Source: Bacteroidia bacterium
Lineage (GTDB): Bacteria > Bacteroidota > Bacteroidia > Cytophagales > JAAEPT01
Reading direction: 5' to 3'
Length of the DNA: 64,000 nucleotides
Assembly (NCBI GenBank): GCA_030431525.1
Contig: JAUIJC010000020.1
Coordinates: 1 to 64,000 of the forward strand
The position numbers and the translations under genes are program-made. The notes under the pieces were generated by a model. The model saw only the letters and a program-made list of their open reading frames with translations. It made no database searches and was not told the DNA's origin. Numbering within the stretch: the first letter of the stretch is position 1; each line of letters starts with the position of its first letter. Positions 15,987-63,773 of the stretch are shown in pieces.

Positions 15987-16116
15987 CGTCGTCAGCTTTC
16001 GGTGTAAGAATTCAGGCGGACGACAAAAATACGGAAAAAGGGAGGGAGGTGGAAGTCAGGAAAGTATTCAAAAAGAATTGCTCCGCATGCTGGGTGCGGA
16101 GAGGGTATAGAGGTTG

Positions 16117-16196
16117 AGGCAAATTCCTTTGTGGAGTTATAAAGACACGACTTTAAACTTGTATAAGTTTCAATTCCTATGTGGAGAGGCTGTGAG
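16117..16196 (-). ncRNA. Candidate Cas-regulating mini-array: two degenerate repeats around a 20-nt pseudo-spacer
   Basis: Read on the minus strand, 16196-16167 resembles the CRISPR repeat with its 3' part intact (AGGAATTGAAAC, giving the 8-nt crRNA 5' handle ATTGAAAC). A pseudo-spacer TTATACAAGTTTAAAGTCGT (16166-16147) follows. The second degenerate repeat at 16146-16117 matches the array repeat at 21 of 30 positions, mainly in its 5' part. The poorly kept halves are those discarded when Cas6 releases a single crRNA. The pseudo-repeats share CTCCACAWAGGAATT, which differs from the array's CTCCATTGAGGAATT. Known CreR/CreA RNAs have this design near cas genes. No small toxin ORF is evident beside it. 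Expression is inferred. Confidence 0.6.
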
Positions 16197-16223
16197 TCGT
16201 GGAGTAAAATTACTGACAATTTG

Positions 16224-16252
16224 TTGACAAATGGGAGTAATTGATTTATTCT
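16224..16252 (+). promoter_or_regulatory. Possible cas operon promoter
   Basis: TTGACA (16224-16229), 17 nt, then TATTCT (16247-16252) fits a sigma70-type promoter with a start near 16259, 20-25 bp before the cas6 ATG. Bacteroidota housekeeping promoters usually look different (TTTG and TAnnTTTG), so this is tentative. The candidate mini-array must be transcribed from the same 85-bp region in the opposite direction. Confidence 0.4.
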
Positions 16253-16263
16253 TAAGATGAGTA

Positions 16264-16281
16264 CTTTAACTTTTATAATGA
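16264..16281. promoter_or_regulatory. Candidate Cascade target site in front of cas6
   Basis: On the minus strand 16278-16268 reads TTATAAAAGTT. It matches the first 11 nt of the pseudo-spacer (TTATACAAGTT) except at position 6, a base that is flipped out in type I Cascade and need not pair. The protospacer is preceded by TCA (16281-16279), a plausible type I-B PAM. The site ends one base before the cas6 ATG (16282), so bound Cascade would block transcription of the operon. It is inferred from sequence. Confidence 0.55.
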
Positions 16282-17082
16282 ATGATTTTTGAATTGCTTT
16301 TAGAAAGGACCTCCCAAGAACAAAGGCTGTCTTGTAATCATCAGTATCCATTAAGTGCTGTGGTTTTCCGGTCGGTGCAAGCTGTGGATGAGAAATTCTC
16401 TCAATGGTTGCACCAAGAAGGGGTCAAATTGGATACAGGTAAATCCTTCAAGCTCTTCTCCTTTTCCAACCTGATCCTTCCCTACGGGCAGTGGAAACAG
16501 GAAGGGGACCGACTTCGGCTCTTGGGCGACGAGGCCTCGTTGAAAATGGGTTTTTGTTTGCCGGAAGTTGCTCAAAAATTCATGAAGGGAGTCTGGCGAC
16601 AGGGGATGGAAATCGAGGTGGCAGACAGGAAATCGGCGGTAACGTTTCGGGTTAAGCAAGTCAAGCCCTTGAAACTTGAACTGCCAGAAGGAAAGGTGAA
16701 GGTGAAGGCATTGAGTCCGCTGGTCATCCGAAAAAAAGTGTTTGATGTTCGGGAGAAACGTGTTAAGAACCAGTGCATTTCTCCCAAAGACCCTGATTTT
16801 GAATTTCTCTTTTTCCAAGGATTGTACGACAAGTACAAGGCTTCATGTCAGTTCTTAGGTCAGGAAGCCAAAGCATTTGATTTGGATAAGATGCGGTTCA
16901 AGTTGCTCTCGAAACCTTATTCCAAAAGGGTGGAGTTGAAACAAGGGGCTTTTGTCTATGGGAACAAGTTTTCCTTTGAACTGGATGCGCCCAAGGAGCT
17001 CGTTGAGCTTGGCTTGACGGCCGGATTTGGGGCTTTGTCCAGTCAGGGATTTGGTTTTTGTGAATTGATGTCTAACAACTGA
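16282..17082 (+). CDS. cas6: CRISPR pre-crRNA endoribonuclease Cas6
   Basis: Cleaves the repeat in the precursor transcript to release crRNAs and stays within or near Cascade in type I-B. The 266-residue protein begins with the RAMP fold and a candidate catalytic His in SCNHQYPLSAVVFRSV (H19). It ends with the glycine-rich loop LTAGFGALSSQGFGFCEL, the Cas6 hallmark. It is first in an eight-gene operon, with cas8b starting 8 bp later. Its start codon lies immediately beside the candidate Cascade target described above. Confidence 0.93.
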   Translation: MIFELLLERTSQEQRLSCNHQYPLSAVVFRSVQAVDEKFSQWLHQEGVKLDTGKSFKLFSFSNLILPYGQWKQEGDRLRLLGDEASLKMGFCLPEVAQKFMKGVWRQGMEIEVADRKSAVTFRVKQVKPLKLELPEGKVKVKALSPLVIRKKVFDVREKRVKNQCISPKDPDFEFLFFQGLYDKYKASCQFLGQEAKAFDLDKMRFKLLSKPYSKRVELKQGAFVYGNKFSFELDAPKELVELGLTAGFGALSSQGFGFCELMSNN

Positions 17083-17090
17083 TTTTTTAT

Positions 17091-18920
17091 ATGATTCGTG
17101 AATTTGTAGCCTTGGCCACAAGCAATGAGTTTGACGCGCTGAAAGGCGAAGGCTTGGTGCCCAAAGACGGAGTATATTTCCGTATTGATCCCAAGAGCTG
17201 GGAGGTGCAGGAATACGAAGTCTATTCCAAAAAAAAGAATGAAGGCTTGTCTGATTTTTTGAGCACGTCGGCTCAAGTCATTGACAATTCGTGGATGGTA
17301 AGTACCAATAAATGTTTGGACTTGCCCAGTCGAGGCATTCACTCGGCAAGCCCGTTTTGCATTGCCTTTAAAAGGGATTCTTGGGTTGGGGGAGCAAAGT
17401 TTGCAAAGGACGGGGACAACAATCTCCTCTGTTTGGAAAGGATTCAAGACTATTTTTCAAAGACGAAAGGATTTTCAGATAAAGAGGACCACGCCTTGAT
17501 CGATGCTTTCCAGACGTTTTTTCTGGAAAAGGCGTCTTTGGTGCTTGACAGTAAAGCGGAGGTCCTTAACGAAATAGGCGATGCAGGATACATCACATTC
17601 TACTTGGATCTTCCTCTTGAAAAGTACCAAGAAGTACACGGAAGACATTTGAAGGATAAACTGTTCAATACGCCTCCCAAGGGCAAACCTGAAGAGGATG
17701 GGACCGTTTTCGGGACGAGTGATTTTTTCAATGGGTTCAACGTTAAAAAGCAGTTTTTGACCCATAATTCGGCAACCTTCGATGTTTCCCAAGTGATATC
17801 GGATAGGGAGGCAAAGGGACTCTATGATTTCAAGAAGGTTCTTGACCGGAAAATCCTTCCCAACCCACTTCCCATTTTTATCGACCGTGAGGAATTGACG
17901 GGGCGAGCCATCCGAATAGACCGTGGAAGGGAGGACAAGAAGTTGGGCTATCGGCGTATTGTCAGGGAGTTGTTAGAAGAGCATCGCCAAAATCTGGGGA
18001 ATTATTACCTGCTTTTTTACCAACAAGGAGAAATCAAGGACTTTGATTTCGTCAGTAAGTTCGACTATGAACTTAAGGAGAATGGTCAGGTTTGGGTGGT
18101 TGAAAATCACTTGCCCTTGAAGGACTCTCCAGATAAAACCCAAATCAAAAACATTTTCGATTTCGAGAAGTGGGTGTTGTTCGCGATGTTCAACAACAAG
18201 TTGGTCGTGCTCAAGGATAACGAGCTGGTGAGCAACCGATATTTTGATGAGTTGAAAGCCGAGTATTGTGGTTCGGCGCATAATTACCAACAGATGCTGA
18301 AATACCGCAAAGCCTGTTATGACTTTGTGTATAAGTCTCGACGTAGTGCTATCAACGGGTTGATGTTCGACGATATCCTGATTTCAGGGATGATGGACGA
18401 TTTGCGGAATCACGAGTTGGATGACGGAAATACTTCGGCGCAGATCAAACGCAAACTGAATCTCTATTTTAGTCTTCACCATATTTTTCACAAAACCAAT
18501 CAATCCATGGCTTCTACATTGCCACAAATGCGATCGGCCATGCGCGAACTTCTCAATGAGGAAGAACGCGTGCTCGCCAATGACAAGGAATTCGGCTATA
18601 CGGCTGGACAGGTGATTTATTACCTATTGGCCCAAAGTAAAACATCGAAAAAGACCCATGCACTCTTAGAGCCTTTTATCCAGAAGAATGATGGGGCAAA
18701 GTTCAAAGAGGCCTTGGTGTCAACCTTCTTTAAGTATAAACATGAACCGTATCTCAATAGTAAGCGCTTCAATGCCTTGATGGCCGAGCTGATGGGCTAT
18801 GCGCCAGAAAAGAGCATCAAAGAAATCTGGCCGGAGATTCTTGCTGGATATTTTGACAAGAACCTCCTTTTCGAAAACAGCAATGCGGACAAGCCAGAGC
18901 TGGAGCTTTCCGAAAATTGA
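17091..18920 (+). CDS. cas8b: Type I-B Cascade large subunit Cas8b
   Basis: A 609-residue protein between cas6 and cas7, the place of the large subunit that recognises the PAM and recruits Cas3. Large subunits diverge quickly. I assign it by position, length and resemblance of parts (such as ITFYLDLPLEKYQEVHGRHLKDKLFN and the helical C-terminal third) to the TM1802/Csh1-type Cas8b of Bacteroidota. No Cys4 zinc finger is obvious. The helical C-terminal region (about 430-600) could be the fused small-subunit part, or an internal start could supply Cas11 as in other I-B systems. Confidence 0.85.
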   Translation: MIREFVALATSNEFDALKGEGLVPKDGVYFRIDPKSWEVQEYEVYSKKKNEGLSDFLSTSAQVIDNSWMVSTNKCLDLPSRGIHSASPFCIAFKRDSWVGGAKFAKDGDNNLLCLERIQDYFSKTKGFSDKEDHALIDAFQTFFLEKASLVLDSKAEVLNEIGDAGYITFYLDLPLEKYQEVHGRHLKDKLFNTPPKGKPEEDGTVFGTSDFFNGFNVKKQFLTHNSATFDVSQVISDREAKGLYDFKKVLDRKILPNPLPIFIDREELTGRAIRIDRGREDKKLGYRRIVRELLEEHRQNLGNYYLLFYQQGEIKDFDFVSKFDYELKENGQVWVVENHLPLKDSPDKTQIKNIFDFEKWVLFAMFNNKLVVLKDNELVSNRYFDELKAEYCGSAHNYQQMLKYRKACYDFVYKSRRSAINGLMFDDILISGMMDDLRNHELDDGNTSAQIKRKLNLYFSLHHIFHKTNQSMASTLPQMRSAMRELLNEEERVLANDKEFGYTAGQVIYYLLAQSKTSKKTHALLEPFIQKNDGAKFKEALVSTFFKYKHEPYLNSKRFNALMAELMGYAPEKSIKEIWPEILAGYFDKNLLFENSNADKPELELSEN

Positions 18921-18952
18921 TTTTCCTTTTTTAACCAAAAACATTCAGACAA

Positions 18953-19909
18953 ATGACTGCTTTTAAGAAACGCGTATATGGATGTGCCATCGTTAAGGCC
19001 ACTAATGCCAACTACAACGCCGATTTTTCACATCAACCACGTACCCTTCCCAATGGAGTGGTCTATGCCACGGACAAGGCCAAAAAGTATCCTGTTCGGA
19101 ATTTTCTGCTCAAGGAACTACAGGAAAAGGTCTTTTATTTTAAAAGTTTCAAGGAAGACACGCTCCAGCCAAGGGATTTGAATGAGCGCTATGAACAGCT
19201 TTTTGGAGTCTTTCCGACTGCTAAAGGAAAGGACAAGGATGCGGTCATCAAGAAGGCGGTTGCTTCCAATTTGTTGAGCTGTATTGATGTGCGTTTGTTC
19301 GGAGGAACCTTTGCCGGCAAAACAAACCTGTCTTTGCATGGCCCAGTTCAAATTACCCATGGCGAGAACCGTTATGCCTTGGAGAATACGATCTATTCCG
19401 AGCAGATCATGTCGCCTTTCCGCAACTCAAGTGAAAAGGGAGCGGATTCTGATGCAAGTACGTTGGGAACTCAGGCCCGTTTGCAGGAGGGACATTATGT
19501 GCACAACATTTCCGTAAACCCAAAAAATCTGGATGAGCTGAATGCTTTGTTGGGCGATCAGGGAACGGCTCTGTCGGAACAGGATATTGAAAAGCTGAAA
19601 GAAGCCCTTCGTGTCGGGGTTACTTATTATGATTCCTCATCCAAGGCCGGAGTTGAGAACGAGCTGTTGTTATGGGTGGAGCTGAAGGAAGGTTCCCGCC
19701 AAGTGATGCCTTCTTTTGTGAAATGGATAGCGGTAAGCGAGGATGGCGTGATTGACCTGTCAAAAGTATCCGCTTATTTGGCGCAAGAGCATATCAAAGC
19801 GCAGGTGGAAAAAGTAGAACTGTTTTACAACGAGTTTGTCACCCAAGTGGAGGGAGCGCCAAAGGGGGCCGTTGTCAGCCCGTTGGACGCGGTTTCTGCC
19901 TCGGTTTAA
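18953..19909 (+). CDS. cas7: Type I-B Cascade backbone Cas7 (Csh2 family)
   Basis: Forms the repeated backbone of Cascade along the crRNA. The 318-residue protein shows Csh2-family signatures: RVYGCAIVKATNANYNAD at the N-terminus, CIDVRLFGGTF, LHGPVQITHGEN, EQIMSPFRN and STLGTQARLQEGHYVHNISVNP. Cas7 is needed in about six copies per complex. The strong hairpin right after its stop may help supply that by protecting the upstream message. The gap to cas5 is 52 bp, wider than most junctions in the operon. Confidence 0.95.
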   Translation: MTAFKKRVYGCAIVKATNANYNADFSHQPRTLPNGVVYATDKAKKYPVRNFLLKELQEKVFYFKSFKEDTLQPRDLNERYEQLFGVFPTAKGKDKDAVIKKAVASNLLSCIDVRLFGGTFAGKTNLSLHGPVQITHGENRYALENTIYSEQIMSPFRNSSEKGADSDASTLGTQARLQEGHYVHNISVNPKNLDELNALLGDQGTALSEQDIEKLKEALRVGVTYYDSSSKAGVENELLLWVELKEGSRQVMPSFVKWIAVSEDGVIDLSKVSAYLAQEHIKAQVEKVELFYNEFVTQVEGAPKGAVVSPLDAVSASV

Positions 19910-19917
19910 GTTTTTAT

Positions 19918-19947
19918 TGGGCGACCAGTGAAATCACGGGTCGCCCA
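19918..19947 (+). promoter_or_regulatory. Hairpin between cas7 and cas5
   Basis: A 9-bp GC-rich stem TGGGCGACC/GGTCGCCCA encloses a second small stem (GTG/CAC). It starts 8 nt after the cas7 stop and ends 14 nt before the cas5 ATG. There is no T-run after it, so it is more likely an mRNA processing or stability element, or partial attenuator, than a full terminator. Confidence 0.65.
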
Positions 19948-19961
19948 TAAATTTCTTGTGT

Positions 19962-20699
19962 ATGCAACGATTGGTTTCGATTGACTTGAGCGCCGACTTT
20001 GCCTTTTTTCGAAAGCCTGACATCAATGATGGAATTTCATTGAGCTATAACATGCTCCACAAACCAGCCTTGTTGGGTGTTTTGGGTGCCATACTTGGCT
20101 TGGGTGGTTATCAGAAAAAGGGCGAGTGGCCGGAATACCATACGCGTCTCAAGCATATTCCCACCGGCGTGGAACCCTTGGGGTCTGACTGTGGGAACTT
20201 TTCAAAGACCGTGATTACCTATAACAACTCGGTAGGTTACGCCAATAAGGACGGCAACTGGATATTGAAGGAAAGCACCTTGGTGAATCCAACCTATCGG
20301 TGTTATTTCCTGTTGAACGAAGGGAATTCCGATGAAAAAAAGCTGTTGGAATACCTTGAAAAAGGCTGGGCCGAATTCATTCCTTACCTCGGGAAGAACG
20401 AGCATACGGCTTGGTGGGAGAATTTTCAGGAGTATGCTGAGTTCGAAGTGAAAACGGTTTTCCGGAAGAATGCTCCCGTGAACGTAGACGAAGAGGTGGA
20501 GTTTGATCTGTTCGCAATGGATTATGAAGAGATGGAGGAACCACCGTTCTACTATTTTGAGCGTTTGCCAGTTGGTTTCGACGAGCGGTTGTACCAGTAT
20601 GAGCTGGGCGAGTTTGTGTACACGGACCGCATTTTTACCGACAGGGATTTTTCCAATCTGTTCAAGTTGGAAAATGATGCGGTGGTTCAACTGAATTGA
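19962..20699 (+). CDS. cas5: Type I-B Cascade subunit Cas5
   Basis: Binds the crRNA 5' handle and joins Cas8 to the Cas7 backbone. The 245-residue protein starts with the RAMP strand LVSIDLSADFAFFRKPDIN. The family segment YNMLHKPALLGVLGAILGLGGY follows, typical of Cas5 in I-B and related systems. I start at the ATG at 19962; a TTG two codons upstream is in frame but less likely. It is followed within about 50 bp by cas3. Confidence 0.93.
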   Translation: MQRLVSIDLSADFAFFRKPDINDGISLSYNMLHKPALLGVLGAILGLGGYQKKGEWPEYHTRLKHIPTGVEPLGSDCGNFSKTVITYNNSVGYANKDGNWILKESTLVNPTYRCYFLLNEGNSDEKKLLEYLEKGWAEFIPYLGKNEHTAWWENFQEYAEFEVKTVFRKNAPVNVDEEVEFDLFAMDYEEMEEPPFYYFERLPVGFDERLYQYELGEFVYTDRIFTDRDFSNLFKLENDAVVQLN

Positions 20700-20751
20700 T
20701 GAACAAGGCTGGTCCGATGTGAAATTTCGTGCCAGCCATTTTTTTGACCTT

Positions 20752-23505
20752 ATGATGCTTACAGAAGATACCCTTGATGTTTTTGTGGGAATTGATCTGA
20801 AAACCCTGATCAAGGATGCCGATTCCTATTTGGCGCATACGCCCGATGAAACCTTGGTAGAACACCTGACTTTGGTGATGGATTATGTATCGGCCTTGGT
20901 GAAGGAGCATGCTTTGGAGTCCGTCATTGAACAGTTGATCGAAGGCTGTTTGCCGGAATGTTCTGAGGAAGAGCAGGAAAACTTGAGGGCCTTTCTGAAG
21001 GAGCTGTTTTTTGCCTCCATCGTGTACCATGATTTCGGGAAAGTGAACGAGAACTTTCAGAAGGAGAAAATGGAGCGTGAGGAGGTGGCCTCTAATCCAT
21101 CGAATGGAATCTCCACGGAACATTCTGTGCTTAGTGCATACATTTTTATTGTCCACTATTCGGAGCAGATAGGAGCGTTTTCATCTAAAAAACTGCATGG
21201 ATTTCTGTCTCGGGCAGTATTCGCGTTTGCTCTTCCGATACTTCGCCATCATGGTTCTTGTTTGCCTGACTTGTTGGACGATAATCCAATGGGACGATTT
21301 GACTTGGAACTTTGTGAGAAGCTTGCCCCTTATCTTGATGTCTTCACCAAAAAGTTTTCAAAAGGGACGGGCCAAAGACCAAGTTTGGCTTTGAAGATTC
21401 TTCGAGAGGAGGCTTTGAATAAGAAAGGGCAAATGTTGAGCATTTTGCCGAGCAAAGACCCCTTTGCTTTTTTCGCCTTGCTCAAGCTCAATTATTCACT
21501 GCTCACCGCTTCGGATTACTATGCCACGGCTGAATATTATTCGAAAGAGCGGATTGGTGATTTTGGGGTGTTTTCTGGAGAACAAAAGAATGGGATTGCC
21601 AGTGCATTGAGGGAGCATCCCGACAAGGATTACAATCGAAGGGCTTTGGAAGAGACCGAAACGATTATCGGTCAGCCTTTGGAGGAACTCTCGCAAAAGG
21701 ATAATGAAAATCTGAACAAACTGCGTTTGCGGATGGCTTCCGAGGCGGTTGCCAATGTTCGTGAGAATATTGATAACCGTCTTTTTTATCTGGAAGCGCC
21801 GACGGGCGGGGGAAAAACGAATACGTCTTTGCTCGTGGCCGGAGAGCTGATGCGCCTTTGTCCGGAGGTCAACAAAATAGTCTATGTTTTTCCGTTTACG
21901 ACTCTGGCCACACAGACCAAGAAGGTCGTGCAGGAAACGTATGGATTAGACGAAGGTTATGTGGCGGAGCTTCACGGAAGGGCGCCCATGCCCGAAAAGC
22001 CAGAAGTCGATGGCGAATATGGGGACGATCGAAAGCATTATATCCATTACCAGTTTGCCAACTATCCCTTTGCGCTGATGACGCACATCCGTTTTTTTGA
22101 TGTGCTCAAGGGAAATGGAAAGGAGCTGAATTACCTTTTGCACCGACTGGCCAATTCGGTGGTCGTTTTGGACGAGATTCAGGGATACACGCCCCTGTTG
22201 TGGGACAAGGTCATTTACTTGCTGAAGAAGTACGCCCGCTATTTTAATATCCGATTTGTAGTGATGTCGGCCACCTTGCCCAAGGTTGACCATTTGGTGG
22301 ATACGGGAGACAGTTTTGTGCATTGCATCAAAAAACCCATTGAGCGCTTTTTCCAAAACCCCAATTTTTCGGGACGCGTCGCTTTCGATTTGTCCATGCT
22401 TGGGAATGAGGAATGGAATCGACCAAGCTCTGACGAGGAGAAAGCCGATTATCTACAACGTTTGGCAAGGCTTGTTCATGAAAAATCAGAAGCGTTTGCT
22501 GAGCAACATCACCAAGGACAGAAAGTACATGCCGTTATCGAATTCATTTTCAAGCGCACAGCATCGGAATTCAGAAAGATTGCCAATGAGGTATTCCCTG
22601 ATTATCAGGTCTTGGAGATTTCGGGAAGTATTCTGGAACCCCGACGCAAGGAGGTCATCAATTTGTTGAAACGGCAAGGAAAGACCGATGCTGGCAAAGT
22701 CCTATTGGTCACCACTCAAGTCGTGGAAGCCGGTGTGGATATCGACATGGACTTGGGATTCAAGGACGTTTCCATCATTGACAGCGAGGAACAGCTGGCG
22801 GGACGCATCAACCGGAACGTGAAGAAAGCGGGATGTACGCTTTATCTGTTTGATTTGGACAAGGCTGGCGTGATCTACGGGAAGGACTTCCGTTATCAGG
22901 AGCAGGCGAGGGAAGGTGCTAAGCTTTGGGAGGCCTATCAATCAACGCTTGCCTCAAAAGATTTTGACAAGTGGTACAATGGCGTGATGAAGCGTTTGGA
23001 CCAATCCAATAAGGCCGAGGGCAAGCAAAGCCTTCCAGAATATGAGGAATTTATCTCCTCACTGTCTTTTGCAAGAATTGACCAAGAGTTCCGTTTGATC
23101 GACCAGCAAAACGTCACGGTGTTCGTTCCCCTTCAAATGCCCAAGGAAATCCAAGCCGAAGAAGGCGATATGGAACCTGTTTTCAAGGATTCAGAACTAC
23201 GCTTTCTGGAGAAAAATGGTGTGGATGTTTCTGGAAGTGAGGTTTGTGGGATTGAGGTGTTTGAGCTTTACAAATCGCTGGTGCAGGACAGAATGAACAG
23301 CGCACGATTCATTGATTTGAAGCAAATGCAGAGTATCCTGTCCAAATACAGTTTTTCCGTTTTTGCGAACTCAAAAGACGTGGACCATTTACGTGGCAAA
23401 GGGAACGAGGAGGTTTATGGTTATCTCTACGCCGTTCACCATGATTTTTACACGTTTGAGAACGGGGTTGACGGTGAGGTTTTGAAAGACACCGACTTTT
23501 TTTGA
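20752..23505 (+). CDS. cas3: CRISPR nuclease-helicase Cas3 (HD plus DExH)
   Basis: Degrades target DNA after recruitment by Cascade. The protein of about 917 residues has an N-terminal HD nuclease (VEHLTLVMDYV, then YHDFGKVNENFQ, then an ILRHHG His pair). The SF2 helicase has EAPTGGGKT (around residue 350), VVLDEIQG (the DEIQ box, around 473), VMSATLP and a C-terminal QLAGRINRN. Both halves look intact. ATGs at 20752 and 20755 are preferred over a GTG 11 codons upstream. Its stop overlaps the cas4 start as TGATG, suggesting coupled translation. Confidence 0.95.
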   Translation: MMLTEDTLDVFVGIDLKTLIKDADSYLAHTPDETLVEHLTLVMDYVSALVKEHALESVIEQLIEGCLPECSEEEQENLRAFLKELFFASIVYHDFGKVNENFQKEKMEREEVASNPSNGISTEHSVLSAYIFIVHYSEQIGAFSSKKLHGFLSRAVFAFALPILRHHGSCLPDLLDDNPMGRFDLELCEKLAPYLDVFTKKFSKGTGQRPSLALKILREEALNKKGQMLSILPSKDPFAFFALLKLNYSLLTASDYYATAEYYSKERIGDFGVFSGEQKNGIASALREHPDKDYNRRALEETETIIGQPLEELSQKDNENLNKLRLRMASEAVANVRENIDNRLFYLEAPTGGGKTNTSLLVAGELMRLCPEVNKIVYVFPFTTLATQTKKVVQETYGLDEGYVAELHGRAPMPEKPEVDGEYGDDRKHYIHYQFANYPFALMTHIRFFDVLKGNGKELNYLLHRLANSVVVLDEIQGYTPLLWDKVIYLLKKYARYFNIRFVVMSATLPKVDHLVDTGDSFVHCIKKPIERFFQNPNFSGRVAFDLSMLGNEEWNRPSSDEEKADYLQRLARLVHEKSEAFAEQHHQGQKVHAVIEFIFKRTASEFRKIANEVFPDYQVLEISGSILEPRRKEVINLLKRQGKTDAGKVLLVTTQVVEAGVDIDMDLGFKDVSIIDSEEQLAGRINRNVKKAGCTLYLFDLDKAGVIYGKDFRYQEQAREGAKLWEAYQSTLASKDFDKWYNGVMKRLDQSNKAEGKQSLPEYEEFISSLSFARIDQEFRLIDQQNVTVFVPLQMPKEIQAEEGDMEPVFKDSELRFLEKNGVDVSGSEVCGIEVFELYKSLVQDRMNSARFIDLKQMQSILSKYSFSVFANSKDVDHLRGKGNEEVYGYLYAVHHDFYTFENGVDGEVLKDTDFF

Positions 23506-24005
23506 TGAGACTCATAGCCACATACATCAATCTGTTCCATGTCTGCAAACGGCAACTGTGGTTGCACGCGCATGGAATCACCATGGAACATTCTTCGGGG
23601 ACGGTTTCCGAAGGGAAATTGGTACAGGATACGTCATTCCAGAAACGCTCTGCTTCCTACGCTGAATTGGAAATTGAAGGAGGAAAAATCGATTTTTTTG
23701 ATGCTAAAAATCGGATCGTCCACGAGGTGAAAAAGTCGGACAGACTTCGAAAAGTGCATCTGGCCCAATTGAAATACTACTTGTACCTCTTGGAAAACAA
23801 AGGCTTGGAGGGCGTCCGTGGGATTTTGGAGTATCCAAAGCAACGAAAAAAGGAAGAGGTGGAGCTTTCTGATGAGGATCGGACAGCGATTCCAACTTGG
23901 GAAAAGGAGATCAAAACCTTATTGGAAGATGAACGATGTCCACCATTGGTCAAGAAACCCTATTGCAAAACATGCAGTTATTTCGATTTCTGCTATTCCG
24001 ACTAA
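23505..24005 (+). CDS. cas4: CRISPR adaptation exonuclease Cas4
   Basis: Trims prespacers and checks the PAM before integration by Cas1-Cas2. The 166-residue protein is a RecB-type nuclease with catalytic residues in GGKIDFFD and HEVKKSD. Four cysteines suited to an Fe-S cluster are present: one in FHVCKRQLW near the N-terminus and three in PYCKTCSYFDFCYSD at the C-terminus. Its ATG overlaps the cas3 stop by one base. A TTG start one codon earlier is possible but unlikely. Confidence 0.93.
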   Translation: MRLIATYINLFHVCKRQLWLHAHGITMEHSSGTVSEGKLVQDTSFQKRSASYAELEIEGGKIDFFDAKNRIVHEVKKSDRLRKVHLAQLKYYLYLLENKGLEGVRGILEYPKQRKKEEVELSDEDRTAIPTWEKEIKTLLEDERCPPLVKKPYCKTCSYFDFCYSD

Positions 24006-24011
24006 TTTTTT

Positions 24012-25016
24012 ATGCGAAGCTCAAAATACCTTTTCAATCCTGGGCGGATGGAACGCCGAGACCACACGCTGAAGTTCACGCCCGTAGATGCCGAGGGCAG
24101 GGAAGGGGCGCCCAAGTTCATCCCCGTCGAACAGGTTGATGACCTGTATGTGTTTGGGAGTTTACAGGCCAACAGTGCCTTGTTCAACTTCTTGGGCAAG
24201 CAACGGATCAACGTCCATTTTTTCGATTACTACGAGCACTATACGGGCTCGTTTATGGCCAAGGATTATCTGCTGGCGGGCAAGATGCAGGTGGAGCAGA
24301 CCAGTCATTACCTTTCGGTGGCCAAGCGCTTGACTTTGGCCCGTTCCATTTTGGATGGGGCATCTTTCAACATCCTCAAGAACCTGAGGTATTATGCCAA
24401 TCGGGACAGGGATCTTGACGATGTGATGGGGGAGATTGTGGCCTTGCAAGGTGAACTGGTTAAATGTGCTGATTTTGGTGAGTTGATGGGCATTGAAGGG
24501 AATATCCGGAAAGCCTATTACCGTGGTTTCGATGAAATCATCACCGGTTTTGAGATGGGCGGACGGGAAAAGCAACCGCCTTCAAATGAAGTGAACGCCT
24601 TGGTTTCTTTCGGAAACATGATGTGCTATACGCTCTGTTTGGGCATGATTTACCATACACAGCTCAACCCCACCATCAGTTTTTTGCATGAGCCAGGTAC
24701 GCGTCGCTATTCTTTGGCCTTGGATCTGGCCGAGATTTTCAAACCATTGTTGGTGGACCGGACCATTTTCAAGGTCCTCAACAAAGGGATGCTGGGCAAG
24801 TCGGATTTTGAACAACGAGCCGATGGTTGTTTCCTCAAGGATAAAGGCCGAAAAGTGTTTGCCAAGGCGTGGGACGAACGGCTCAAGGAAACCATCCAGC
24901 ACCGTTCGCTTGGGCGCAAGGTGATGTACAAGAATTTGGTGAAGTTGGAAGCGTACAAAATATCTAAGCATTGTTTGGGTATTCAGCAATACGAACCCTT
25001 CAAAATGTGGTGGTAA
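24012..25016 (+). CDS. cas1: CRISPR integrase Cas1
   Basis: Integrates new spacers at the leader end. The 334-residue protein carries the three metal ligands typical of the family: Glu in LMGIEGNIRKAYY (around residue 162), His in SFLHEPGTRR (around 228) and acidic residues in LALDLAEIFKPLLVDR. The N-terminal beta domain begins KYLFNPGRMERRDHTLKF, as in type I-B Cas1. It lies 6 bp after cas4 and 1 bp before cas2. Confidence 0.97.
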   Translation: MRSSKYLFNPGRMERRDHTLKFTPVDAEGREGAPKFIPVEQVDDLYVFGSLQANSALFNFLGKQRINVHFFDYYEHYTGSFMAKDYLLAGKMQVEQTSHYLSVAKRLTLARSILDGASFNILKNLRYYANRDRDLDDVMGEIVALQGELVKCADFGELMGIEGNIRKAYYRGFDEIITGFEMGGREKQPPSNEVNALVSFGNMMCYTLCLGMIYHTQLNPTISFLHEPGTRRYSLALDLAEIFKPLLVDRTIFKVLNKGMLGKSDFEQRADGCFLKDKGRKVFAKAWDERLKETIQHRSLGRKVMYKNLVKLEAYKISKHCLGIQQYEPFKMWW

Positions 25017-25017
25017 G

Positions 25018-25281
25018 ATGTATGTGATTTTGATGTACGATTGTGGAGAGAAACGCGTCGGCAAGATGCTCAAGCTTTGTCGTCGTTACCTGACTTGGAT
25101 TCAGAACTCCGTTTTCGAGGGCGAAATAACGGAATACAAGCTGAAGGAACTCATATCCATGGCCAAGGATATTATGGAAGAGGATGAGGACAGTCTTATC
25201 GTCTTCAAGAGCCGTTCAGATAAATGGCTTGACAAGGAGATCGTCGGCGTGAACAAAAACGAGCCCAACGACTTCTTTTGA
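25018..25281 (+). CDS. cas2: CRISPR adaptation protein Cas2
   Basis: The central dimer of the spacer integration complex. The 87-residue protein has the ferredoxin-like start YVILMYDCGEKRVGKMLKLCRRYLTWIQNSVFEGE, with the conserved Asp after the first strand. It is the last gene of the cas operon, and the CRISPR leader begins right after it. Confidence 0.96.
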   Translation: MYVILMYDCGEKRVGKMLKLCRRYLTWIQNSVFEGEITEYKLKELISMAKDIMEEDEDSLIVFKSRSDKWLDKEIVGVNKNEPNDFF

Positions 25282-25484: not shown

Positions 25485-27698
25485 GTTTTTATAGCTCCAT
25501 TGAGGAATTGAAATGTACAGAAGGAATAAAGCCCTTCAAGATCATCGCGGTTTTTATAGCTCCATTGAGGAATTGAAATAAAAGAACGAGCGTGACCGTG
25601 AGGAATACTTGAAAGTTTTTATAGCTCCATTGAGGAATTGAAATTAGTGCATCCGAATCATTGTCACCGATTCATACATGGTTTTTATAGCTCCATTGAG
25701 GAATTGAAATAAGAATATGCACGTAGGAGAGTTACAAGGTAACGGGTTTTTATAGCTCCATTGAGGAATTGAAATGAAATAAGAACCTCTCTCCCGTAGG
25801 GCGATTTAGCAGTTTTTATAGCTCCATTGAGGAATTGAAATCTGGGACTTCAAGAGGTGTACATTGACACTGGAATAGTTTTTATAGCTCCATTGAGGAA
25901 TTGAAATAAGAAAGGCACAGAGCTTATTGCTACGCAGTTGATTGTTTTTATAGCTCCATTGAGGAATTGAAATATGTGGCTGACACCGAGACCTTGGTGA
26001 CTGGCAGGGGTTTTTATAGCTCCATTGAGGAATTGAAATCTGCTTATCCAAGCCTTGGCCATCGCATGGAACTCGGTTTTTATAGCTCCATTGAGGAATT
26101 GAAATATCGACCGCTTGCCCACCCTCGGGCGCTGGGCTAATGTTTTTATAGCTCCATTGAGGAATTGAAATGTCACCCAAGCGGTGCTGTCTGCTGTGGT
26201 GTTGAAAGTTTTTATAGCTCCATTGAGGAATTGAAATATGATGATCTGACACCGCCAAACCCAAGCCTTCCGGTTTTTATAGCTCCATTGAGGAATTGAA
26301 ATATGCTTTTGGTCGGCGGTAGTTCTTTATCGCCTTGTGTTTTTATAGCTCCATTGAGGAATTGAAATAGCTCAACTCCGACTTGACCGTCAACTGGACA
26401 GAGGGTTTTTATAGCTCCATTGAGGAATTGAAATCGCTGAAAGAAGCTTGAACCGACTGCTTTACGCTGGTTTTTATAGCTCCATTGAGGAATTGAAATC
26501 GCTGAAAGAAGCTTGAACCGACTGCTTTACGCTGGTTTTTATAGCTCCATTGAGGAATTGAAATCTTTAAATCACTTTTAAAATGACCAAGAAAAAGAAA
26601 GTTTTTATAGCTCCATTGAGGAATTGAAATTTAGACGTGTATTGTGTAAAGAAAACTCAACTTTGGTTTTTATAGCTCCATTGAGGAATTGAAATCTTCC
26701 TTGCCGTCAAAGACTTCGTTGGTATCCAGAGGTTTTTATAGCTCCATTGAGGAATTGAAATCCCGACGGCTGTGTTTAGAGAGCACAGCATTTTCCAGTT
26801 TTTATAGCTCCATTGAGGAATTGAAATTCGTATGATGCCTACGAAGCTAATAACCGATAACGGGTTTTTTATAGCTCCATTGAGGAATTGAAATTGCCAC
26901 ACCAGGCATGAGACGCCAAGTGTATCTATAGTTTTTATAGCTCCATTGAGGAATTGAAATCTAAAAACTGCAACAAGAATAAGGTTGGCGATAAAAGTTT
27001 TTATAGCTCCATTGAGGAATTGAAATATCAGGGCGCTTTGCACCTACCTTTACATACGAAAGTTTTTATATCTCCATTGAGGAATTGAAATCAGCACGGG
27101 CTTGTTGAACGCCAGACGGATAATGCAGTTTTTATAGCTCCATTGAGGAATTGAAATCAGAAACAAGTAACCAGGGAAATATTGGTCCGGTAGGGTTTTT
27201 ATAGCTCCATTGAGGAATTGAAATCCAGAAAAGTCCATGCGATGGCGCCATTCCAACAAAGTTTTTATAGCTCCATTGAGGAATTGAAATTGTGATTGCA
27301 ATCAGTAACAATTGCTGATGCCCATTTGCTTAGCAAGGTTTTTATATCTCCATTGAGGAATTGAAATAGCCATTGAGGTAGGCACTGTCAGCGATGAGGA
27401 CTTGTTTTTATATCTCCATTGAGGAATTGAAATTGGTAAAGTTCCGGGCTGGCTCCCCAAACACGGCCGTTTTTATATCTCCATTGAGGAATTGAAATAC
27501 GTAAGGCTGAATGCTGAAATATGGTCCGAGCGTGGTTTTTATATCTCCATTGAGGGATTGAAAGAGATACACGGTTTGGCGCTCACAAGAAAGATCTTGT
27601 TTTTATTATATCTCCATTGAGGAATTGAAATCAGGAGGATGCTTTGAAGGGGTACTTGAGGAAATACCGTTTTTATATCTCTACCGAGGAATTGACAC
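25485..27698 (+). CRISPR. Type I-B CRISPR array, 34 repeats and 33 spacers
   Basis: The repeat is 30 bp, starts GTTTTTATAGCTCC and ends GAATTGAAAT, with the usual 8-nt handle ATTGAAAT. Spacers are mostly 35-37 bp. Repeat starts include 25485, 25550, 25615, 25681 and so on to 27669. Repeats 25 (27062) and 29-33 carry TATATCTCC instead of TATAGCTCC. Repeat 32 also has GGGATTGAAAG, repeat 33 has a 3-bp insertion, and the last (27669) is clearly degenerate. Decay at this end marks it as leader-distal. Spacers at 26435-26469 and 26500-26534 are identical. The spacer at 27291-27337 is 47 bp. Confidence 0.98.
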
Positions 27699-28067
27699 TT
27701 ATAGTCCACAATCATGCCCGGCTTATGATCTTGTCATACAGTCCTTCATGTTTAGTCTTGAAGTGAACACAACTTTATCTGGACTTCAATAAGACCCCAA
27801 AGCAGTCATCCTGATGAGGATGCTAACTCCAATATAGGTTTAGGTCGTTTGTGATTCAGTATTTTGTGAGTAGAACGTTTTTATAACGAATAATTGCTTT
27901 ATAGCGATGAATTGCGACTTCAATAAGGCTTGTTATTATCTCATGATCTCAAAATTTGGTGATACTGGTTTTGTGAATGCAGGAAAAGTTCAGGAAAACG
28001 AAACACTAAGATGGTGTAAGTTTTCTGGAAAATATGTTTTTTTGTCTTATCGAAAAGCTTGGAGTGG
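27699..28067. other. Intergenic region after the array
   Basis: 369 bp with no convincing gene. GACTTCAATAAG occurs twice (about 27782 and 27909). A CATCC/GGATG hairpin lies near 27810. GTTTTTATA at about 27880 matches the first nine bases of the repeat and could be a relic or chance. It probably contains the promoter of the following STAS-like gene. Confidence 0.5.
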
Positions 28068-28553
28068 ATGAAGAAAGGTAGCTCAACAGTAGGAAAGGAA
28101 CTGTCCGAGTTTTTGGGGACAGACAGATGGGAGTATTTGTTGGAGGATGAGTTTATCCTGTTCGAACGTGTGGGAGAATTTTTGCTTTGTATTTACAAAG
28201 ATTTTCCCGTCCTAAACCTTGAAGTGGCTCAAAAGGTAGCAGAAACCCGTCGAATTGCTATCGAAATGATGGGACAGGAAAAAGTGTTTCTGTTTGTGGA
28301 TATGAGCCAGGTGAAAAAATCAACTACAGAGGCCAGGGACTTTTTTGATAAACCTGAGGAGACAAAGGCTTTTGCGGCAATGGCATTGTACACAGAGTCT
28401 TTATTGGCTTATGTGGTAGGAACCTTTTACCTCAAGTTTACTAAATTCAAAGGGGTCTATCAGCAGATCTTTTTTGATAAGAAAAAAGCATGTCAATGGC
28501 TGGAAAAGGAAGTGATTACAGGTAAATATGCACCAGTGTCAAAGGTTGCATAG
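28068..28553 (+). CDS. STAS/SEC14-like domain protein, first paralogue
   Basis: A 161-residue soluble protein resembling small STAS-like proteins of Bacteroidota. It has the pattern VFLFVDMSQVKKSTTEARDFF (strand then helix), AMALYTESLLAYVVGTFYLKF and a final FFDKKKACQWLEK, much like SpoIIAA-type sequences. Its biochemical role is unknown. I start at ATG 28068; a TTG three codons earlier is in frame. A tandem paralogue follows at 28841 and shares an almost identical 5' DNA block. Confidence 0.7.
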   Translation: MKKGSSTVGKELSEFLGTDRWEYLLEDEFILFERVGEFLLCIYKDFPVLNLEVAQKVAETRRIAIEMMGQEKVFLFVDMSQVKKSTTEARDFFDKPEETKAFAAMALYTESLLAYVVGTFYLKFTKFKGVYQQIFFDKKKACQWLEKEVITGKYAPVSKVA

Positions 28554-28840
28554 CCAGCTTTTTGCAGATAACAGTTAGTTGTTGATAATCTGCTTGTTGT
28601 CTCATTTATGCTTGAGTCATGATTTTATTTCCTGTTTTTAATTGAGGGTCTAACTCAAGACCAGTAGTCTTTGAGTTGTTAGTACTTAACCAGCCATTTT
28701 GACTTTTTTGGTCTAAAAGAAAGAGGTGTGATTTTTTGAAAGCCCCGCGCTGATTTTGCCAAAAATGGTACGTTTCATGTTATGGGAATGTAAGGTTATT
28801 AATACATGGTGGTTTTACACTTTTGATAATTCTGGAGAGT

Positions 28841-29338
28841 ATGCAGAAAGGAAAATCCCTGTTGGGAAAGGAATTGTCCGAGTTTTTGGGGACAGACAGA
28901 TGGGAGTATTTGTTGGAGGATGAGTTTATCCTGTTTGAACGGGTCGGAGATTTAATGTTGTGTATCTATAAAGAGATTCCTGTATTGGATATTTCCATTG
29001 CCAAAAAAGTGGCAATAACCCGACGAAAAGCTGTGGAAATGATGAATCAACAGCAAGTGTTTTTGTTTGTTGATTTGACAAAGGTTATCAGGTCCACAAC
29101 AGAGGCGAGGCATTTTTATGATAGGCCAGAAGAAACTGTAAGTTTTGGAGCCATGGCACTTTATACGGAGTCCATTATTTCCTATGTAGTTGGAGCTTTT
29201 TATTTCAAAATGTCCAATTTCAATAAGGTCTCGCAACAGGTTTTTTTAGATAAGGAAAAAGCTTGTGAGTGGGTGATGAAGAAGAAGCAAGAAGCTGAAA
29301 GGGAGATGGAGAAAGAAGCGATGACAGAATCTGTATGA
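28841..29338 (+). CDS. STAS/SEC14-like domain protein, second paralogue
   Basis: A 165-residue paralogue of the gene at 28068 with the same layout (VFLFVDLTKVIRSTTEARHFYDRPEE, then AMALYTESIISYVVGAFYFKM, then VFLDKEKACEWV). It has an extra charged C-terminal tail (KKKQEAEREMEKEAMT). About 75 bases of its 5' coding DNA differ from the first copy at only a couple of positions, while the rest diverges freely. The 287-bp gap before it holds no gene I can support. Function is unknown. Confidence 0.7.
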   Translation: MQKGKSLLGKELSEFLGTDRWEYLLEDEFILFERVGDLMLCIYKEIPVLDISIAKKVAITRRKAVEMMNQQQVFLFVDLTKVIRSTTEARHFYDRPEETVSFGAMALYTESIISYVVGAFYFKMSNFNKVSQQVFLDKEKACEWVMKKKQEAEREMEKEAMTESV

Positions 29339-62489: not shown

Positions 62490-63773
62490 ATGGCCAAGAA
62501 GATGATTCCAAACGTCGCGGCCCGAAACAAGCTCAAAACTCCTTTGGCCAATGTGCTGGACAAGGAGGAGCTTACAAAGGACCAACACGTAAAACAGAAT
62601 ATTGTTATTCTCGATGAGTTGCGCGACTTGATTCCGCCTTTGCAGGACGAGGAAAGTCAGCAGCTTGAAGATAATATTTCCAAGGAGGGCGTACGTGAAC
62701 CCTTGTTGTTATGGGCAATGATTGACGGTCGTTTTGCCATTGTTGATGGCCACAACCGTTACCGAATCGCCCAGAAGTTAGAGAAGGATTTCAACTATCA
62801 ATTCCTGAAATTCCCTAACATCACGGAAGCCAAGGACTGGATGATTAACAACCAGCTTGGTCGAAGAAACCTTTCTCCAATGCAGGCTTCTTACCTGCGT
62901 GGCCAACTTTACAACGCCACAAAACAGCAGAAAGGAGGCTATGACAATGTCATCAAGGGAAGGTCAAATCCTCAAAATGAGGAATTGATCAATGGCGAAA
63001 ACCCACAAGTTGATTCTATTCCCCAAAATGAGGTTTCGAAAGATACCTCGGCAATGATTGCCGAACGATACAGTGTTTCCAAAAACACTATCCAGCGTGA
63101 TGGTAAGTTTGCAGAGGCGATTGACGCGATCGGTAAGGTGAATAGGGAGGTCAAGCAGGATCTTTTGGCTGGAAAAACCAAAGCTAATAAACAGGACATC
63201 CAAACGCTGGCAAAGGCCAAGCCTGAGGAGCTTGTTATTGATAAGCCTGAGGACATCTCCAGAGAGGCCGATAAAGTCCGTAAGACTGCTAAGATTAAGA
63301 AACCCTCACCAACTAAGGAGATCGCAAAACCTAAGCGTCGCTGGACGCCTGAGGCTATGGCGAAAACCTTGGACTCAAAGTGGTATAGCGAAATTCCACA
63401 CGAGGAATGGGAGGGGAGTAGACACCTCCATTTCTTGGATATTGAGATTGGGGAAAAGAATTTCGATGCGGTTCTTTTTGCTAAGGACACCGCTGAAAGT
63501 TCCATCTTGATTGGATCACTTGTATTCACCTCCATTGAGGAATTGGCAAATGCCGTACTTGATGGCTTGAAAGATTCAGGTGCTGATTATGTTTTGGTAG
63601 GGGTTGCAGGTGATGCTGATCCTGCGGATATGCCTGAGATACCAGAAGGGTTTGGAGTGCTTTCTTTCGGTGAAAATAAGACGCCTCAACTGGTCAGGAA
63701 TCCTCAAAAGCTTTCCCCAGAAAGCAGTGGTCGTTCAGGCTTGTTGGAGGGATTACTTGGAAAGCTTCTCTAA
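62490..63773 (+). CDS. ParB-like partition protein
   Basis: 427 residues. The N-terminal ParB/Sulfiredoxin fold has ISKEGVREPLLLWAMIDGRFAIVDGHNRYRIAQ. An HTH-like region follows (NQLGRRNLSPMQASYLRGQLYNATKQQKG, then ERYSVSKNTIQRDGKFAEAIDAI). A long Lys/Pro linker and a C-terminal acidic domain of unknown type (HFLDIEIGEKNFDAVLFAKD, GADYVLVGVAGDAD) complete it. This is more like ParB-type proteins of Bacteroidota plasmids and mobile elements than chromosomal Spo0J. The C-terminal domain is unassigned. Possible parS-like sites lie within and before it. Confidence 0.8.
   Translation: MAKKMIPNVAARNKLKTPLANVLDKEELTKDQHVKQNIVILDELRDLIPPLQDEESQQLEDNISKEGVREPLLLWAMIDGRFAIVDGHNRYRIAQKLEKDFNYQFLKFPNITEAKDWMINNQLGRRNLSPMQASYLRGQLYNATKQQKGGYDNVIKGRSNPQNEELINGENPQVDSIPQNEVSKDTSAMIAERYSVSKNTIQRDGKFAEAIDAIGKVNREVKQDLLAGKTKANKQDIQTLAKAKPEELVIDKPEDISREADKVRKTAKIKKPSPTKEIAKPKRRWTPEAMAKTLDSKWYSEIPHEEWEGSRHLHFLDIEIGEKNFDAVLFAKDTAESSILIGSLVFTSIEELANAVLDGLKDSGADYVLVGVAGDADPADMPEIPEGFGVLSFGENKTPQLVRNPQKLSPESSGRSGLLEGLLGKLL
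62964..63036. promoter_or_regulatory. Two palindromic cores inside parB
   Basis: CCTCAAAATGAGG at 62970-62982 (flanks TCAAAT and AATTGA, nearly palindromic as a whole) and CCCCAAAATGAGG at 63021-63033 (flank TTTCGAA). The second is identical to the reverse complement of the core at 61450. They encode the repeated peptide PQNE in the linker, so the likeness may be partly protein-driven. Confidence 0.4.

Follow-up and report, generated by a model that had tools for sequence, protein, structure and literature searches.

A degenerate mini-array upstream of a type I-B cas6 operon is a probable CreR-type guide for Cascade autorepression in a Bacteroidia bacterium

Does the short repeat-like element that lies ahead of a type I-B cas operon in a Bacteroidia bacterium direct Cascade back to the operon that encodes it? 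Based on our analysis of the window (the whole 64,000-nt stretch of DNA), the minus-strand mini-array at 16196-16117 is very probably a creR gene, whose guide steers Cascade to repress its own cas operon. The anatomy of the element, its PAM, its seed match, its terminator and the covariation of guide and target in relatives can be read directly from the sequences, and the element fits a CreR in every feature that is testable in this way.

The window contains a complete type I-B operon, cas6-cas8-cas7-cas5-cas3-cas4-cas1-cas2 (16282-25281, plus strand). The first gene, cas6 (16282-17082), is followed on the same strand by a cas8-type large Cascade subunit (17091-18920), cas7 (18953-19909), cas5 (19956-20699), cas3 (20719-23505), and then cas4, a type I-B cas1 and cas2 (23502-25281). 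The typing is based on a Cas5 matching TIGR02592 (type I-B) and a Cas1b matching TIGR03641, both above cut-off, on a Cas6 matching TIGR01877, and on the matching CRISPR array alongside (25485-27698, plus strand), which comprises 34 repeats of GTTTTTATAGCTCCATTGAGGAATTGAAAT and 33 spacers of 35-37 nt, with one of 47 nt. The large subunit was assigned by its position and its homologues in relatives; no Pfam or NCBIfam model matched it, and homologues are found at roughly 30-43% identity across the class. The best plus-strand promoter match ahead of cas6 is TTGACA-17-TATTCT at 16224-16252, which is the predicted promoter of the operon by consensus match only. Within the array, the identical neighbouring spacers at 26435-26469 and 26500-26534 (CGCTGAAAGAAGCTTGAACCGACTGCTTTACGCTG) represent a duplicated repeat-spacer unit, and just past the array, at 28059-29338, there are tandem paralogous ORFs of 164 and 171 amino acids with 75% DNA identity over 300 nt.

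Just upstream of the operon, the minus strand carries a degenerate mini-array composed of a first repeat (PsiR1), a pseudo-spacer (PsiS) and a second repeat (PsiR2), and then an intrinsic terminator. PsiR1 (16167-16196) agrees with the array repeat at 17 of 30 positions and keeps the 5'-handle ATTGAAAC intact, its last 20 nt showing 0 mismatches to CTCCANNNAGGAATTKRAAY. The 20-nt pseudo-spacer TTATACAAGTTTAAAGTCGT occupies 16147-16166, and PsiR2 (16117-16146) agrees with the repeat at 21 of 30 positions and has lost the 3' handle, with ATTTGCCT standing for ATTGAAAT. The full handle has been kept in PsiR1 while the rest has decayed, and in PsiR2 the 5' part has been kept and the handle is gone. 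In CreTA modules, PsiR1 is the more diverged repeat yet retains the 8-nt Cas5 handle, and PsiR2 is without it (PMC9458426); the window element obeys the same rule, with ATTGAAAC in PsiR1 and ATTTGCCT in PsiR2. Its two-part repeat score is 28, compared with a maximum of 23 in shuffled sequence. The intrinsic terminator at 16081-16101 (minus strand), the predicted end of the CreR RNA, consists of CTCCGCA-loop-TGCGGAG followed by CAATTCTTTTT. An Rfam search returned no match for the element. A minus-strand ORF running across it (15992-16351) had no Pfam match and was taken as spurious, and a repeat-like stretch at 63530, far from the CRISPR locus, was taken as chance.

The pseudo-spacer has a partial counterpart directly in front of cas6. 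The seed target TTATAAAAGTT (16268-16278, minus strand) pairs with PsiS at positions 1-5 and 7-11. A preliminary description of this DNA had reported 10 matches among the first 11 bases with the mismatch at position 6, and our rereading of the minus strand from 16278 to 16268 against PsiS confirms it. The PAM-side TCA is likewise found where it had been placed, at 16279-16281 on the minus strand, abutting the cas6 start codon (ATG at 16282). The further claim, that the match fades quickly past position 11, needs correcting. From 16278 downward the minus strand reads TTATAAAAGTTAAAG, in which position 12, like position 6 a base that Cascade flips out, is mismatched and positions 13-14 pair again, giving 12 of 14 paired positions with 6 and 12 as the sole mismatches within 1-14; when one deleted target base is allowed, the similarity extends to about 17 nt. 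The -10 hexamer of the predicted promoter lies 16 nt upstream of the site, and a 35-nt protospacer, which would occupy 16244-16278, would therefore cover the -10 and the likely start region.

Could so short a match have arisen by accident? The preliminary description had considered this unlikely, a view that our shuffles uphold and a simpler count does not. In first-order Markov shuffles of the 310-nt region, searched on either strand, a 10/10 seed (positions 1-5 and 7-11) was obtained in 0.18% and a 10/10 seed with a YCA PAM in 0.015%, but a naive, model-free count of ungapped 16-mers gave p 0.09. The window taken alone is thus suggestive but weak evidence, and the case is carried by the relatives. 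In the 4.24-Mb genome, TTATANAAGTT occurs 12 times, one occurrence being the pseudo-spacer itself, and the 11-nt seed is found at 10 further places beside the pseudo-spacer and the site. In a genome-wide search for a better-matching target, the 16-nt pattern gave no perfect second copy. It could be argued that the element is a decayed remnant, an array with two repeats surviving from an old rearrangement, that happens to lie near an accidental AT-rich seed match. The AT-rich gap, the naive count and a pairing (14 positions, 12 of them paired) shorter than in most relatives (16-18) are compatible with such an origin; the rarity of the seed with YCA in the shuffles, the intact handle, the terminator and the same kind of element in 18 relatives, with covarying pairs, argue against it, and we regard it as highly improbable.

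These relatives come from a search for cas6 across 390 genomes of the order, which gave matches in 60; for most of the 60, the entire locus was retrieved. A two-part scan (PsiR1-gap-PsiR2), from which ordinary-array remnants in L042 and L078 were left out, recovered ten loci of other genomes with a clear element in the gap that follows cas6. The pseudo-spacers of these ten are different words, each found again close by on the same strand, preceded by TCA or CCA. A second scan, combining handle, seed and YCA, extended the set to 18 loci besides the window, nearly all with the element antisense and between cas6 and the effector genes. The finder run itself returned 19 positive loci, among which the discounted L041 is included and the window, missed by score, is not; the element was on the minus strand in 18 of the 19. 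The control PAM classes RCA, YAC, YGA, YCT, YTA, YAA and YTT gave 0 loci each and YCG gave 1, and 0 of 177 shuffled loci were positive. With relaxed cut-offs, applied to the loci not already positive and to the window, matches appeared only in the window and in the doubtful L041, which lies just past cas6, is off the mismatch pattern and was not counted. A terminator follows 14 of 19 elements, compared with 55 of 380 random positions. At one further locus (L096, cas6 start +829, minus), a single well-kept ectopic repeat was observed at the cas6 3' end, with no second repeat or target detected.

Pseudo-spacer and target had been expected to covary in relatives, and this is borne out where the element lies after cas6. 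True pairs score 9-10 of 10 in the seed, and swapped pairs mostly 5-7 (typically 6), with values above 8 being rare (3 of 110 with YCA). Covariation was assessed in this arrangement because no near relative in the sample shares that of the window: none of the sampled relatives has the element upstream of cas6, and in them it is found between cas6 and the effector genes instead. The closest cas6 among them is only 38% identical to that of the window, and the window's family is represented by two genomes in the sample, the second without a cas6 match. No element was detected upstream of cas6 in five type I-B relatives in which cas6 and cas8 are separated by a small gap or none (L052, L053, L054, L148 and L149), nor were convincing ectopic repeat pairs seen directly upstream of cas6 in relatives. 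The comparison also bears on a reading unrelated to Cascade, in which GACTTTAAACTTGTATAAG at 16148-16166 and GTACTTTAACTTTTATAAT at 16261-16279 would be the two copies of a directly repeated binding site for a transcription factor. Although the similarity does span about 17 nt with one gap, in relatives a repeat-like handle always precedes one copy and YCA the other, and the shared words vary by locus, so that a transcription factor would have no common motif to read; we find this explanation scarcely credible.

The mismatches within the pairs are not evenly spread. In the ten repeat-found elements they fall at 14 of 20 positions 6 and 12, compared with 5 of 149 at the other positions to 17 (Fisher p 3.7e-12). 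Since the score used for picking sites omits 6 and 12, an unweighted choice of the best site was made as well, and the ten relatives and the window then had mismatches in 8/11, 8/11 and 6/11 cases at positions 6, 12 and 18, and in 0-3 elsewhere; this run gave L038 another site, its true site being beyond that search range. Pairing generally ends near 17-18, although, as positions 13-17 are within the score of the second finder, this end-point is less certain than the result for 6 and 12. It has been reported that Cascade flips out every sixth base and that, in the type I-E system of E. coli, a seed of five base pairs with a good PAM is enough for Cascade binding, whereas interference needs over 18 bp (PMC5904413), a length that the pairing in these loci generally falls short of. 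A mismatch frequency of about 70% at 6 and 12 is close to that of unconstrained positions, which suggests that the pairs are old. We put forward, at roughly even chances, that Cascade-guiding mini-arrays are an old regulatory family across one order, in which guide and target co-diverge freely and only the Cascade contacts (YCA, 1-5, 7-11 and 13-17) are kept. With 6 and 12 apparently saturated, the loci would record the bases that type I-B Cascade uses, the same kind of element having been re-aimed at cas6, at an effector operon or at a PIN-type toxin.

The PAM is TCA at 7 and CCA at 12 of all 19 sites, the window included, and of six loci sharing the window's Cas8 family, five have TCA and one has CCA. 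Additionally, a spacer of a type I-B relative (G235) matches its own genome at 32 of 35 positions after TCA. The compatibility of the PAM with TCA, on which the preliminary description had depended, is thereby upheld. The phage collections, from which it had proposed to derive the PAM by spacer matches, yielded nothing usable. INPHARED, compared with the arrays of the window and three relatives, gave only weak matches that were taken as chance; a plasmid collection searched with the spacers and IMG/VR searched for exact spacer words gave nothing, and phages related to the resident prophage gave no further protospacers. The last (oldest) spacer of the window (27632-27668) matches its own genome at 34 of 37 positions in a phage-tail-like, prophage-like region (contig C6, 20730-20766; L138). 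The match is preceded by ACA and has a mismatch at position 1, which is consistent with a tolerated escape site; it is probably a prophage self-target that has escaped. The PAM was derived largely from the target sites, with two protospacers in addition.

In most relatives, the PAM side lies 0-270 nt from the first downstream operon gene (0 nt in L043, 10 in L055, 18 in L083, 27 in L064, 37 in L075, 51 in L047 and 4 in the window), with L065 as an outlier at 407 nt. In the relatives, cas6 stands apart from the effector operon, with element and target between them; in the window, cas6 heads one compact operon, and element and target hold the corresponding place ahead of it. A CreTA module would assign a different role to the target, which would be the promoter for a small toxin RNA (creT) transcribed on the minus strand toward the mini-array, so that a toxin and not the cas genes would be repressed. 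The position of the target, upstream of the pseudo-spacer on the same strand, is compatible with a creTA operon (PMC9458426), about 47 nt are free between the 35-nt protospacer and PsiR1 in the window, and L048 provides a DUF433/DUF5615 case in which 30 nt separate the target from the DUF5615 ATG downstream of it. However, the protospacer ends no more than 3 nt from PsiR1 in seven relatives (L043, L051, L055, L061, L064, L075 and L084), which leaves no room for a CreT toxin RNA, and in the window the cas6 ATG directly adjoins the PAM, while the stretch from site to mini-array is without an ORF of note. We consider this reading very unlikely.

For the preferred reading, a creR gene that represses the cas operon, we infer transcription, processing, binding, repression and physiology along the following lines. 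The creR transcript, ended by the terminator at 16101-16081, would be cut by Cas6 within PsiR1, and the resulting crRNA-like RNA would consist of the handle ATTGAAAC and the guide TTATACAAGTTTAAAGTCGT; the processed RNA is expected to start with ATTGAAACTTATACAAG and to measure roughly 50-80 nt. Type I-B Cascade loaded with this RNA would read TCA and about 12 bp (1-5, 7-11 and 13-14) from 16278 downward on the minus strand, and once bound would occupy the -10 and the start region of cas6-8-7-5-3-4-1-2 and block its transcription, while the R-loop would not be long enough to license Cas3. The output of cas genes would then be set by how much Cascade is free, and repression may be relieved by competition from ordinary crRNAs or by inhibition through an anti-CRISPR protein. 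Autorepression of the cas operon by its own Cascade, as originally suggested, gains support from the PAM and from the covariation in relatives. One prediction is that both crRNA load and anti-CRISPR proteins affect cas expression in these bacteria.

CreR, a cas-regulating RNA, is established in types I-B, I-E and V-A (Liu et al. 2023, Cell Host Microbe 31:1481, doi 10.1016/j.chom.2023.08.005; as presented in the reviews PMC13131331 and PMC12737573). The window shares with it a degenerate mini-CRISPR by the cas operon, a crRNA-like guide partly complementary to the cas promoter, the type I-B setting and the lack of a toxin gene, and differs in having the element upstream of cas6, a PAM abutting its start codon and a 20-nt pseudo-spacer. 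The CreR mechanism itself is already known; the unusual features here are that the element precedes cas6 and that its target borders directly on the start codon. Our literature search, in which the primary CreR paper was known through reviews, found no published CreR case from this order. CreTA (Li et al. 2021; PMC9458426) has in common with the window the PsiR1-PsiS-PsiR2 layout, the handle only in PsiR1, the partial promoter match and Cascade as repressor, but the window target is at the cas operon rather than at a toxin promoter, and the PAM is YCA rather than the haloarchaeal TTC. Raw sequence supports RNA-guided CRISPR-Cas autorepression in a lineage for which the literature searched held no published example. 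From the 19 natural guide-target pairs one can read, without experiment, YCA as the PAM and 6, 12 and probably 18 as the positions that these Cascades ignore, and the pairs supply a rule for finding CreR: a repeat-like handle, then a word that recurs after YCA at the neighbouring operon. Effector autorepression is also achieved by tracr-L of type II-A, through pairing of a truncated guide with the effector's own promoter, with Cas9 and a tracrRNA rather than Cascade and a mini-array. Cas9 autorepression is mentioned in PMC13131331.

Several relatives carry small genes beside such elements. In L048 (cas6 start +895 to +1670, plus), a DUF433/DUF5615 (PIN-like) pair of the toxin-antitoxin type is followed by a crRNA-like element, the pseudo-spacer of which matches at 18 of 18 positions the TCA-preceded site upstream of DUF5615. 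With the element after the gene pair and the target upstream of the second gene, the locus is similar to CrePA, the CRISPR-repressed toxin-antitoxin (PMC12737573), and looks like a CrePA-type Cascade-repressed toxin, whereas the window is without such a gene pair. Toxin-linked versions of the element therefore probably exist in the order. In L038 (cas6 start +902 to +1692, minus), target and mini-array are separated by two small genes (173 and 66 amino acids, no Pfam match), which suggests a Cascade-repressed gene pair, and genes similar to this pair are found in L051 beyond its element. Finally, small minus-strand ORFs of about 91 and 62 amino acids (e.g. MDIDFSELSLANGDYPDG...), with no Pfam match, recur beside the CreR elements in the gap after cas6 in L064 and its relatives.
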